From contig JAQWAM010000015.1 in the NCBI GenBank assembly GCA_028707675.1, forward strand, positions 1 to 11,473: 11,473 nucleotides of DNA. The letters are read 5' to 3'. Of this stretch, positions 1 through 11,473 are shown piece after piece. The position numbers and the translations under genes are program-made. The first letter of the stretch is position 1. Each line of letters opens with the position of its first letter. This DNA is from Kiritimatiellia bacterium. Its GTDB lineage: Bacteria; Verrucomicrobiota; Kiritimatiellia; RFP12; UBA1067. The notes under the pieces are model-generated. The model was not told the DNA's origin and ran no database searches. It saw only the letters and a list, made by a program, of their open reading frames with translations.

Positions 1-108
1 CTGACCGAGGCCCGCGGCAATTATTACCGGGCGCTGTATGACCACAGCGTCGCGCGCCTCTCTCTCGCGCACGCGACGGGTGTGCTTGGCAAGGAGCTGG
101 AGGAATGA
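1..108 (+). CDS. TolC-family outer membrane efflux protein, C-terminal end only (partial)
   Basis: Only the last 35 codons are inside the window, in frame from base 1 to the TGA at 106-108; the gene starts to the left. The visible residues include NYYRALYDHSVARLSLAHATG followed by a short charged tail. This fits the last helix of outer-membrane efflux proteins (OEP/TolC family), where a helix with regularly spaced Tyr/Ala/Leu ends in a small hydrophobic-Gly segment. Its stop overlaps the start of the adaptor gene (ATGA at 105-108), which implies translational coupling and supports the channel role: TolC-type proteins are the outer-membrane partner of adaptor-RND pumps. The family call rests on this short tail plus operon context, so it is likely but not certain. 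Confidence 0.7.
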   Translation: MTEARGNYYRALYDHSVARLSLAHATGVLGKELEE

Positions 109-7863: not shown

Positions 7864-8741
7864 TCAGGTTTCATGCACGGTTGATGATTTCACTGTAGCG
7901 CCGATGAGTTCATCGACCTTTTTGAAATTCACACAACGAATCTTGCCGAGAGTAGGTATCAAATCGCCTGCATAGACAATGGCCGGCGAGGCAACGTTAC
8001 CCGCGAAGGATAGAAATTATTAAAATAGCCCGGTAATCTGAACACGATGTAACTCGCCTCGAGCACAGACAGCCATGAAGACAAGGCCACAGATGACACT
8101 CCGACATCGTTAGACAGGCTGCTCAAATTTACAAGTTGCCCCACTCTCCCGGCCAGCAGCTTAACAAACACTTCAAAAGCGTGCTGATTGGACAGGTTGA
8201 TCAGTTGTCTGACATCTCTCTCGACATAGGTGCGATAGTAGTTGGCGTACAAAAGTTCCGGGGCCACATGCTCATCATAGATGCGGGGCATGAAGCCCTT
8301 GAAAATATAGTCATCCCGGTCCATGGTTATGCCGGCTCTCTCCAATTCGGCAATGGAAAGCGGCAGCAGCTCGAGGATGGCGGCGCGGCCGGCGAGAGAC
8401 TGAGAGATGTCAGTCCGCAGGCCGGGTTGATGCGACCCGGTAAGAATGAATTGGCCGTTCTTTTTGGTTTCGTCAGACATCACTTGGATGGTACTCAGCA
8501 ACTCCGGAGCCCGCTGGATTTCATCCAAAATGATCGGGCACTTGTACTGATGGAAAAACTCGACCGGATCCATCTTCGCCAACTGCCGTAACGCAATGTT
8601 TTCGAGGTTGACGTAAGTGTGGTTAGGGAAATGGTGTTTGGCAAGTGTGGTCTTGCCTGACTGCCGCGGTCCCATGATGGAGACCACCCGAAAAGACTTC
8701 GCCAATTTGTCCAAATGGGATGTGATGGCACTTTCGATCAT
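7864..8741 (-). pseudogene. COG1373-type AAA+ ATPase (AAA_14/DUF4143), broken by an internal frameshifting deletion
   Basis: The intact open frame from the ATG at 8741 codes for 260 aa, but only about the first 243 (to GYFNNF, ending at 8013) match the family. Walker A is GPRQSGKTT (about 24-32), Walker B is IILDEIQ (about 70-76), then LTGSHQ and LAGRAAILELLPLSIAELE; ASYIVFRLPGYFNNF is the start of the second (DUF4143) half. The final residues of that frame, up to the TGA at 7959-7961, are out-of-frame sequence. In another frame the bases from 8007 down to a TGA at 7864-7866 encode 47 residues starting FAGNVASPAIVYAGD, which fit the C-terminal end of this family (xxYLVYGGD...). So about 100 residues, including the family's usual FYDTGLA and nuclease-like EIDxxxE regions, have been lost with a frame change. 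Members are usually near 380-400 aa. Translation start is clear: an AAGGAGGT-type site at 8747-8754. The gene is more AT-rich than its neighbours, suggesting transfer. A 260-aa NTPase fragment may still be made. Confidence 0.85.
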
Positions 8742-9037
8742 GGTTCACCTCCTTGAACAATCGTAGCCGTTCACGGGGGGGGCGCGGGGTTCCCGATGCA
8801 AGTTGGTGCTTCCGTGCGCCTCGATGAGAACGGGCGTCTTCCCTAACTCGATCAAGTGCGTATCTGATTAAGGGTGGCGGTTAAGAAAGTGTCCGCTTAA
8901 GAGCGCTGACACTCCGCATCTACCCTTCGTCGCAACACTTCAACCCCACACTTGCCCGGTTACGCTTACTCGATTCCGTCTTGCCGCGCGAACGATGCGA
9001 TCCGCCCGGCGTCCCTGCGGCGGGGGCGCCGGGCCCA
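8742..9037. other. Non-coding region between ATPase remnant and transposase, with possible IS-end sequence
   Basis: No established gene is found here. From left to right it holds the strong ribosome-binding site of the ATPase (8747-8754), a run of eight G (8775-8782), a 36-codon open frame on the - strand with a TTG start (8855 down to a TGA at 8745-8747) ending inside that ribosome-binding site, the hairpin at 8889-8912, and the sequence GTAAGCGTAACCGGG on the - strand (8969-8955). GTAAGCG is the type of sequence IS66-family terminal repeats begin with, but here it points away from the transposase gene, so the left end of the mobile element cannot be fixed. Confidence 0.5.
8889..8912. repeat. 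Imperfect inverted repeat (hairpin, 9-bp stem, TAAG loop)
   Basis: GTGTCCGCT (8889-8897) pairs with AGCG (8902-8905) and GACAC (8908-8912), leaving a TAAG loop and a two-base CT bulge. There is no T tract on either side, so it does not look like an intrinsic terminator. It lies about 125 bp beyond the transposase stop and about 150 bp upstream of the ATPase, so it could be a recombinase or regulator site or part of an insertion-sequence end. Confidence 0.5.
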
Positions 9038-10522
9038 TCAGCCCAAGGCGGGCAACAGGGAGGGCGCGGGTTCGCCGCGGAAGTGCGCCCGCACGGCCGC
9101 GAGGATGAACGCGAAGGCGGACCGGCCCTGCATCGCGCAGGTGCCGACCACCGTCCAGAGCCGTTCGCAGGTCTCACGGCCCTTGAGGCTGCGCGTGCCT
9201 TGCGTGATGCGCCGGTCGATCACCACGAAGCGCACGGCTTGCTCGGCGAGGTTGTTGGTGGGGCCGATGCCGGGCGTGGTGATGAACGCGAAGTAGACCT
9301 TGCCGTTTTCGCGGAAACGTTTGGCCATGTTGAAGGCTTCGCGCTTGAGTTCCTTGCCGTCGGCGTCCAGGCGGGAGGGCACGTCGCGCAGCGCCTCCTC
9401 CAGGATGCGGTCGCGCGCGTGTTCGAGCGCGCGCCGGAAGGCGGCCGGATCGGTCTCGTCGCGGCGGTGGATGACCTTGAACATTGCCTTGACCGCCGCG
9501 AGAAGCCGCTGGCCATAGGCGCGCGTTTCGGCGTCGGGCAGCCCGGCCAGGAACTTGATGTCGCGGATCAGATGGGCGATGCAGAACTGCACCGTGATGC
9601 CGAAGTCACCCATGTACTTGTGGTAGGCGGAGAAGTAGTCGCAGCCGAGCACGCCGTCGAACTCCTCGCCGAGCACATCGAGCAGCACCTGCGAGCCGCG
9701 GGATTTGTCGATTCTGAACAGCACATACAGTTCGGCGCGGAACACCCAGGTCCAGAACTTCCCGCCGTTGTCCTTGTGGCCGGTCTCGTCCACGTTCAGC
9801 GCCTGCTCCAGGGGCAGCCGTTTGAGCAGTTCCTCGTAGGGCGCCTCCAGCGCGGCGGAGGCCTTCGCGACGACCTTGCGCAGGTGGCCGCGCGAGACGT
9901 TTTCGCCCAGCACGTCGCGCACGAACGTGCGGATCGTCGAAAAGGAGGCGTGATCCACGGCCTTCATGTACGCGACCAGCGCGGTGAGCCGCTCCTTGAA
10001 CAGGCCTTCCTTGACCACCGCTTCGGGGAAGGGGTGGTAATGGACTTTCTGGCAGCGCCCGCACCAGACCGGATAGGAGCGGTGCTCTTCCTTGAAGACG
10101 ACGACCTTTTCGATCTCCATCTGCTGCTGCACGCGCGGCGGTTGATCGAGGAACTGCACCTCGGCGTTGCCGCACTCCGGGCAGGTTTCCAACCGGTACT
10201 CGTGGAAGTTCTTGATCTCCGCTTCCGGGAAGGCCGGGCGCTCGTGCCGGGGATGGCCGGGTTGCGCGCCGATCTTGCGTTTGCCCCGTTGTCGTTGCTG
10301 CGGCTTGGGGCGTGTGATGTCCGACGACGGAGGCTTGCTGGAGTTGGTGGAGTTCTTCGAGAGCGTTGCCACCTTGGTCTCCAGATCGGCCACCTTGCGC
10401 AGCAGCAGATCGATCTGCCGCTGCTGCGCCTCGACGCGCGCGGCCAGATCGCAGATCAGCCGGGCCGCGGCCTCCGGGTCGCCGAGGCAAAGGGCCAGCG
10501 CTTGTTCAAACGATATCGCCAC
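9038..10522 (-). CDS. tnpC: IS66-family DDE transposase (TnpC-like)
   Basis: This 494-aa protein would catalyse cut-and-join of the surrounding element. An N-terminal leucine-zipper-like coiled coil (about 18-55) is followed by the IS66 hallmark NSSKPPSSD (about 60-68), a basic linker with GKRKIGAQPGHP, and a zinc-binding domain with C114-x2-C117 and C154-x2-C157. The DDE catalytic core shows Asp245 in LNVDETGHKDNGGKFW, Asp295 in VLGCDYFSAYHKY and Glu427 in TNNLAEQAVRFV. Length and motifs match full-size IS66 TnpC, so the enzyme looks intact. The open frame continues upstream to 10768, but that part is the shadow of the overlapping druA-like gene. I choose the GTG at 10522, which gives MAISFEQALALC and has GGGAGG six bases upstream (10529-10534). 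It overlaps the end of the upstream gene by 17 nt, so the two are probably translated together. No TnpA or TnpB gene is visible, though the window ends 83 bp upstream of the pair. Confidence 0.93.
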   Translation of the reverse strand: MAISFEQALALCLGDPEAAARLICDLAARVEAQQRQIDLLLRKVADLETKVATLSKNSTNSSKPPSSDITRPKPQQRQRGKRKIGAQPGHPRHERPAFPEAEIKNFHEYRLETCPECGNAEVQFLDQPPRVQQQMEIEKVVVFKEEHRSYPVWCGRCQKVHYHPFPEAVVKEGLFKERLTALVAYMKAVDHASFSTIRTFVRDVLGENVSRGHLRKVVAKASAALEAPYEELLKRLPLEQALNVDETGHKDNGGKFWTWVFRAELYVLFRIDKSRGSQVLLDVLGEEFDGVLGCDYFSAYHKYMGDFGITVQFCIAHLIRDIKFLAGLPDAETRAYGQRLLAAVKAMFKVIHRRDETDPAAFRRALEHARDRILEEALRDVPSRLDADGKELKREAFNMAKRFRENGKVYFAFITTPGIGPTNNLAEQAVRFVVIDRRITQGTRSLKGRETCERLWTVVGTCAMQGRSAFAFILAAVRAHFRGEPAPSLLPALG

Positions 10523-11390
10523 GCAACGCCTCCCGGAAGTTCGCCGCCAGCGGATACAGATACACATCCTTGACCGGCACGTGAATGCGCGTGTGCCGGT
10601 CGTTGCGGGTGCGGCCCCGGGTCTCGCCCAGCCGCCGCCAGTTGGCCGCACGGTAGCACGTGCCCTTGAACCGCGCGCGGTCCACGAAGGTCTCCAGCGC
10701 ATGCACCGGATGCCCGTACTTGGCCTGCCAGTCGGCGCGGATGCGCCGGGCGATGAGGCCCAGCACATGGCTGGCCAGATGCGGGACTTGCACCCAGCCG
10801 GGTATCAGAAAACGCGTGTTGTTCGTCAGGCGCTGCAGATTGCGTTCGCGCGCGGGGCGGTCCCAACCGATGAAGGCGTCGCGGTCCGCGCACTTCCAGG
10901 CCGCCGACCCGAACAGCACGCAGGCCACCGGGCAACCGTGCCGGTCCCGCACGAGGTAGCGGATGTTCTCGCCGACCGTGTTGCGATGGCCGAGGTAGTG
11001 CTCATGGGCCAGCAGGCCGAGGAAAAGACGCGCGTCGGCCGAGCCCGGCGCGACGATGCTCACGGCCAACGGTTGCAGGTCGCGCAACGCGCCGCGGATC
11101 GGTTCGTCCGGCGGCGCGATCGGTTCGGCCAGCCGGTTGCGTCGCCCGTTGGGCGAAGGCGCGCGCCGCGCAGGCAATCGCAGATGCCCCGCCCGTTCCA
11201 GTTTCAGCAGCAGCGTGCGCGCCGCCATGTCCTTTGGGCGGCCTTGCGCGTTACGCCAGTCCCAGCACGCGCACAGTTCCCGGCTCAGGCGCGTGCGGTT
11301 CCATTCGGGATGCGCGTTCAACAGACCGAGAATCAGATCCATGTCCGACACGTCGAGTCGCCGCCCCTGTATGACCATGACGCTTGCCAT
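10506..11390 (-). CDS. DUF4338 (DruA-like) protein coupled to an IS66 transposase
   Basis: I recognise this roughly 294-aa protein as DUF4338, the family of DruA from the type I Druantia anti-phage system. The N-terminal part (LDVSDMDLILGLLNAHP, then RTLSREL-like RLSRELCACWDWRN and DMAARTLLLKLERAGHLRLP) resembles a small helix-turn-helix. After a Pro/Arg-rich linker comes the conserved core with LLAHEHYLGHRNTVGENIRYLV, a short strand (CVLFGSAAWKC), RDAFIGWD, LTNNTRFLIPGWVQVPHLAS, ETFVDRARFKGTCYRAANW and a GRTRNDR tail, ending PVKDVYLYPL. The molecular activity is not established. The start is uncertain: ATG at 11390 is annotated, ATG at 11378 (MVIQGRR) is at least as similar to family N-termini, and a TTG at 11408 is possible; none has a clear ribosome-binding site. 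The stop overlaps tnpC by 17 nt. No druBCDE gene, in particular no DruE helicase, is in the window, so a complete Druantia system is not shown. Confidence 0.85.
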   Translation of the reverse strand: MASVMVIQGRRLDVSDMDLILGLLNAHPEWNRTRLSRELCACWDWRNAQGRPKDMAARTLLLKLERAGHLRLPARRAPSPNGRRNRLAEPIAPPDEPIRGALRDLQPLAVSIVAPGSADARLFLGLLAHEHYLGHRNTVGENIRYLVRDRHGCPVACVLFGSAAWKCADRDAFIGWDRPARERNLQRLTNNTRFLIPGWVQVPHLASHVLGLIARRIRADWQAKYGHPVHALETFVDRARFKGTCYRAANWRRLGETRGRTRNDRHTRIHVPVKDVYLYPLAANFREALRGDIV

Positions 11391-11456
11391 GCCGGAACAG
11401 TACGGCAAACGCCGCGATGAGTCCAGTCAAAAATCTTTTTTTTTCGCTTGCGCTTC

Positions 11457-11473
11457 GGGGGGGGGGGGGGGGG
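11457..11473. other. Run of 17 G at the sequence end, probably an artefact
   Basis: The sequence ends in an uninterrupted G run directly after a nine-T run (11436-11444) and GCTTGCGCTTC. Homopolymer G at a contig end is typical of low-signal two-colour sequencing reads or an assembly break in a repeat, so these bases should not be trusted. The 66 bases between the last 17 and the druA-like start contain a TTGACT hexamer (- strand, 11430-11425) that might be a -35 box, but no well-spaced -10 box was seen. Confidence 0.6.

Follow-up and report, generated by a model that had tools for sequence, protein, structure and literature searches.

We analysed an 11,473-nt stretch of DNA (the window), which is the entire contig C148 (JAQWAM010000015.1) of an incomplete Kiritimatiellia genome (469 contigs, 81.6% complete) and in which a gene for a DruA-like (DUF4338) protein is followed on the same strand by a gene for an IS66-family DDE transposase. 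Positions 8763–11473 of the window constitute most of an IS66-type insertion sequence (IS), the remaining end of which is found on contig C45 of the same genome. This element appears to encode two translationally coupled proteins: the transposase, and a DruA-like protein whose GNAT domain resembles Mom.

The insertion sequence and its two genes

The 294-aa protein matched the Pfam DruA family with an E-value of 5.4e-36 and 124.7 bits (cut-off 27), and the transposase exceeded the cut-offs of both Pfam PF03050 (E 5.9e-37) and NCBIfam NF033517 (E 2e-81). The overlap of the two genes, the GTG start and the internal ribosome-binding site, which a sequence-only reading of this DNA had proposed, were all confirmed (Table 1). 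The same reading had taken the overlap as a sign of evolved co-expression; this is supported by an overlap of identical length in L002, a locus whose DruA-like protein is 93% identical to that of the window, and by 28 of 32 adjacent pairs in which the transposase start codon overlaps the druA stop by 1–22 nt. These pairs, the window among them, were chosen as intact enough, and the four without such an overlap are L018, L022, L029 and L031; the chance level of overlap is an estimate made without a shuffled control, by which about one third of pairs would have some start codon in the stretch. In L029, an extra 154-aa open reading frame (ORF) with no Pfam match lies between the DruA-like gene and the IS66 transposase (1744–2208). 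The dN/dS values between the window and L002 (NG86) were 0.15 for druA and 0.25 for the transposase, and both genes look constrained, as under purifying selection.

Table 1. Positions of the genes, domains and element ends in the window and on contig C45
Feature	Position	Strand	Basis or remark
IS66-family DDE transposase, 494 aa, GTG start at 10522	9038..10522	-	Pfam, NCBIfam
DruA-like (DUF4338) protein, 294 aa, ATG start	10506..11390	-	Pfam PF14236
17-nt overlap of druA-like and transposase genes	10506..10522	-	
Shine-Dalgarno-like GGGAGG inside druA-like gene, 6 nt upstream of transposase GTG	10529..10534	-	
Mom-like GNAT domain, residues ~100-290	10521..11093	-	
Ser207 codon	10770-10772	-	within Mom-like GNAT domain
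His131 codon	10998-11000	-	within Mom-like GNAT domain
N-terminal helical domain, residues 1-80, helix-turn-helix-like by weak matches only	11151..11390	-	
8-bp target-site duplication GAACAATC	8755..8762; second copy C45 (locus L204) 101-108	.	
Terminal inverted repeat, transposase side, GTAGCCGTTCACGG	8763..8776	+	L002 homology stops at 8762
Partner inverted repeat GTAACCGTTCACGG	C45 87-100	-	13/14 positions match GTAGCCGTTCACGG
Repeated TTAAG motifs near element end, candidate protein-binding sites	8868..8903	.	sequence
Homopolymer where contig breaks, inside element	11457..11473	.	sequence and L002 comparison

Homology between the window and L002 ends immediately outside the transposase-side repeat. 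The motif GTARCCGTTCACGG occurs twice in the genome, in the window copy and in the partner repeat near the end of C45, whose positions 1–100 are collinear with the druA-side end of L002. Beyond that repeat, C45 reads the same 8 bases that lie outside the window repeat. Because the C45 end is collinear, the repeats match and the same 8 bases stand outside them, the druA-like gene lies inside the element, and it is almost certainly part of the transposon. The inserted unit runs from window position 8763 through both genes into C45 and measures ~2.8 kb; the L002 copy is 2837 bp long. At least part of the G-run at the contig end is genuine, since a C-run is present at the same place in L002. The sequence-only reading had placed both genes correctly and missed the element ends (8763 onward to C45); the outcome that it named as damaging to its view, ends that exclude the druA-like gene, did not occur, as the inverted repeats and the duplication enclose both genes.

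The element shares with the IS66 family its transposase domain, inverted repeats that begin with GTA and a target duplication of 8 bp, which is the rule for that family. It differs in the added druA-like gene that overlaps the transposase gene, and in the lack of TnpB from its genome. TnpB is missing from some IS66 members, and no match to it (PF05717) was found in the window's genome (G000, 81.6% complete); we therefore file the window element as an IS66-transposase element without TnpB. In 5 of the 51 loci tested (L018, L020, L024, L028 and L030), TnpB immediately precedes the druA-like gene. This TnpB-DruA-TnpC order indicates that TnpB loss is no condition of the pairing, and that DruA was added to IS66 and did not simply replace its helpers. 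The earlier suggestion that DUF4338 takes the TnpA/TnpB position is partly supported: it agrees with the window's genome and does not fit these five loci.

Between the transposase stop and the inverted repeat, L002 (2721–2881) contains GTAAG/TTAAG/TTAACCG repeats, spaced by ~10–25 bases and in more copies than the window; both groups of repeats are candidate binding sites.

Transposase partners in other genomes

We examined a first set of 46 loci, found by similarity to the DruA-like protein alone. A same-strand transposase stood directly after, or was fused to, the druA-like gene in 32 of the 37 testable loci; nine were cut off by a contig end, and the five without a transposase were all fragments. 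The partners belonged to IS66 (26 by our own hidden Markov model (HMM), L021 being unconfirmed), ISKra4 (3, one doubtful), ISAs1 (2) and IS1634 (1). The second set, drawn from 387 genomes of the window's phylum, comprised 63 places that exceeded the Pfam cut-off, the window included. Here a same-strand transposase was downstream of, or fused to, the druA-like domain in 43 of 52 testable places (43 of 63 in total), with ISAs1 (26), IS4 (8), IS66 (7), IS701 (1) and IS1634 (1) as partners; outside the 52, eight places were cut off and three were not recognised by our DruA HMM. The pair is not confined to the window's genome, whereas such confinement would have told against the sequence-only reading. 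The view of that reading that DUF4338 is a transposition partner is upheld by the ends that enclose both genes and by the many paired loci.

As a directional control, a transposase upstream of the druA-like gene was seen in only 1 of 30 cases in the first set and in 0 of 46 in the second, and neither set contained an opposite-strand transposase on either side. The explanation that the two genes are chance neighbours has next to no probability: the overlapping starts speak against it, and the target-site duplication and the directional control already refute it.

Overall, druA-like genes stood directly before a transposase gene, or were fused to the N-terminal end of the transposase, in six IS families (IS66, ISAs1, IS4/Tn5-type, IS701, IS1634 and ISKra4) and in one Tn7-like element. 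Representatives of IS1634 (L023), ISAs1 (L031), IS4 (L058), IS66 (L024 and L029) and ISKra4 (L158) exceeded the NCBIfam cut-offs; L027 (ISKra4) and L044 (ISAs1) fell below them. All ten long fusions (IS4, eight; IS701, two) were over the cut-off, and 23 of 24 shorter fusions matched ISAs1 at E <= 1e-3, some of them below the ISAs1 cut-off. In the ISAs1 and IS701 fusions, the matched part is the GNAT portion only, and the N-terminal domain is missing. A Bacillota sample (299 genomes; 29 loci examined of 68 rows listed) included five loci (L217, L218, L220, L223 and L234) in which the DruA-like gene precedes a distantly IS1380/ISH3-like DDE transposase below the NCBIfam cut-off, perhaps an unnamed IS group.

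Some of the fusion elements show mobility of their own. Genome G112 carries four near-identical copies of a fusion element (at least 99.9% over 1.9 kb) in different places, and three other fusion elements have repeats with 9–11-bp duplications. Terminal repeats beginning GTA enclose both genes in 10 of 25 relative loci searched; L013 has an exact 8-bp duplication (GTTTCAAT), L008 a duplication with one mismatch, and the other eight no duplication or no flank. On the Thiodictyon plasmid pTs485, a DUF4338 gene and a Tn5-type (IS4) transposase gene are enclosed by 33-nt repeats of 76% complementarity and a 9-bp duplication, GGCCCTGGG, read by eye; the flanks carry the two parts of an annotated DUF2235 gene, and an IS91-type element has inserted between the enclosed genes. 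In L061 (5870–8540), the DUF4338 gene of a larger element is separated from its Tn5-type transposase by an inserted IS91-type transposase with a site-specific integrase gene.

In the Tn7-like locus, L157 (3622–12412), a gene for a full-length DruA comes after those for TnsA, a TnsB-type protein, TniB and TniQ and overlaps the last of these by 7 nt. DruA is in turn followed by a protein of 404 aa, without a Pfam hit but NurA-like by eye, and by a HerA-like ATPase; a comparable set in L155 consists of DruA, a 412-aa protein and a HerA-like protein.

The Mom-like domain and its proposed role

The DruA-like domain has a GNAT fold and is sequence-related to Mom of phage Mu, itself a transposing element. 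The two share the fold, a profile-level relation and the HY / R / S(T) / D / GxxYxA positions, and most invariant residues of Mom are kept, including a serine at the Mom Ser124 position. Among 56 transposon-linked rows, active-site positions are conserved in up to 56 (the Tyr of HY in 48 and Asn in 42). In contrast to Mom, the DruA-like protein has an extra N-terminal domain and is coupled or fused to transposases of other kinds, and identity is 16–18%. The match to the Mom family profile phrog_1384 (E 0.0018) covers residues 230–264 only.

By analogy with Mom, the DruA-like protein would be a coenzyme A-dependent acyltransferase that modifies DNA, possibly at N6 of adenine. The adjoining or attached transposase might deliver it to the transposon ends or to the target, where the DNA mark would help or protect one step of transposition, by shielding transposon DNA from host nucleases, marking donor versus target, or setting target choice. 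Fusion to a transposase argues for action at the transpososome, and the small size of the element together with the recurrence beside different DDE families suggests a common step, for example one in which the ends or the target are protected or marked. We assign a probability of about 0.6 to the whole reading, namely a coupled IS66 element whose Mom-like DNA acyltransferase serves transposition. That the druA-like gene is dedicated to transposition is quite probable; that its product is an enzyme acting on DNA is plausible by the analogy with Mom, at slightly below even odds. More tentatively, DruA-like proteins may represent a mobile Mom-like DNA-modifying class, repeatedly recruited, through operons or fusions, as a dedicated partner of unrelated DDE transposases, with Druantia's DruA as a distant, catalytically altered relative.

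Three other explanations were considered. The protein could acetylate the transposase or a host factor, for instance to time or limit transposition, and never act on DNA; we regard this as unlikely, because the residue pattern shared with Mom (HY, R, S, D/E, GxxYxA) spans the domain to the C-terminal strand, and Mom is the top-scoring chain. It is improbable that the gene is cargo, a selfish anti-restriction or defence passenger that protects the element or host and has no part in transposition, although Mu deploys Mom against restriction (PMC10286901 and PMC12926258), and DUF4338 is found in defence-type proteins fused to DndF (PMC10853773), in AAA/STAND fusions (L161, L163) and in Druantia (L156). 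Cargo genes are usually variable, whereas this gene keeps a fixed place and direction upstream of unrelated transposases, with overlapping starts, and forms single polypeptides with them in ISAs1, IS4 and IS701 elements. A non-catalytic DNA-binding helper in the TnpB/TnpA role, with the GNAT domain as a scaffold, would suit the helix-turn-helix-like N-terminus and a genome without TnpB; however, this too has a low probability, given the conserved active-site positions, the ISAs1/IS701 fusions reduced to the GNAT portion, and the loci in which TnpB and DruA occur together.

Several observations weigh against the reading of a Mom-like acyltransferase that serves transposition. The window's element is a single copy in its genome, and its mobility rests on the target-site duplication. 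The transposase HMMs were built from the same loci, so that a family name counts as independent only for loci checked against NCBIfam or Pfam. By these HMMs, 9 of the 52 testable places in the second set had no transposase, one of which (L129) is followed after 1 nt by a broken IS4-type gene. In a third set, 20 places from 398 genomes of a Pseudomonadota sample (two below-cut-off rows dropped; L070 repeats L023 of the first set), only seven had a transposase; three were cut off, and the ten others include Druantia-type proteins, AAA/STAND-type fusions and fragments. The 29 Bacillota loci comprised eight clear transposases, the five distant ones, seven full-length Druantia-type proteins (a class assigned without PADLOC) and nine others. 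These counts indicate that the transposase-linked share differs between phyla.

With regard to the domain, the Tyr of the HY motif is absent from 8 of the 56 transposon-linked rows, and 4 of 11 Mom proteins have Thr in place of Mu Mom Ser124. The Foldseek order ranks other acetyltransferases first, with Mom absent among the 50 rows listed, and each hhalign E-value refers to one pair only, no other GNAT profiles having served as a negative control.

No insertion sequence with DUF4338 is described in the portions consulted of the open-access PMC literature (including PMC8565338, PMC12774648, PMC9148166 and PMC7242445), and within open-access PMC papers we found no description of base modification taking part in IS transposition. 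The literature found, as far as its available parts go, gives the function of DUF4338/DruA as unknown or merely as a GNAT domain. The present results provide DUF4338/DruA with a testable function and suggest a possible involvement of base modification in IS transposition; if the more tentative reading above is true, many ordinary insertion sequences would mark DNA chemically as part of their transposition.

Druantia and other DUF4338 contexts

In this window, a gene commonly classed with phage defence belongs to a transposon. A Druantia system was considered for the window and rejected: its protein matched the PADLOC Druantia type I DruA model over 53 residues only (E 5.2e-4, 17.2 bits), far from the E-values of 4e-80 to 1e-211 obtained with the full-length DruA proteins of L155–L157, and no other dru gene is on the contig, as the sequence-only reading had noted, the long ORFs being HlyD, AcrB, a sensor kinase and an AAA_14 protein. 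Since a transposase is beside or fused to the domain in the majority of the phylum-sample places, a PF14236 match alone is no ground for calling Druantia. The transposon-linked set shares the PF14236 region with Druantia type I DruA (97 columns, probability 97, E 8e-11), which, unlike the window protein, has ~400 aa. In alignments, the Mom-like residues are missing from the three proteins of L155–L157 (Druantia-type or Tn7-like loci), which also gave no profile match to Mom.

Druantia DruA may derive from a transposon gene, as had been proposed, but the trees, which do not fix the branching order, gave this no support. One quick tree placed Druantia DruA inside the transposon-linked set, on a very long branch; with a second data set, keeping all transposon-linked rows in one group gave a tree that beat the free search by 13.9 log units (approximately unbiased test, p 0.797).

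In L160–L163, the DruA domain lies within proteins of 680–1281 aa, with the Pfam match in two stretches; one has an AAA_16 match and one an nSTAND3 match, and these look like defence-type fusions without a transposase. The DndF-fused DUF4338 is the same Pfam domain, likewise read as GNAT in PMC10853773, and differs from the window element in its defence context without a transposase.

In the region next to the element (7959–8762), the window element adjoins, on the upstream side, the start (8741) of an AAA_14/DUF4143 gene. This gene, a match to the PADLOC candidate PDC-S01 (E 3.5e-61), ends prematurely after 260 aa, and only 70 of 160 DUF4143 positions are matched.
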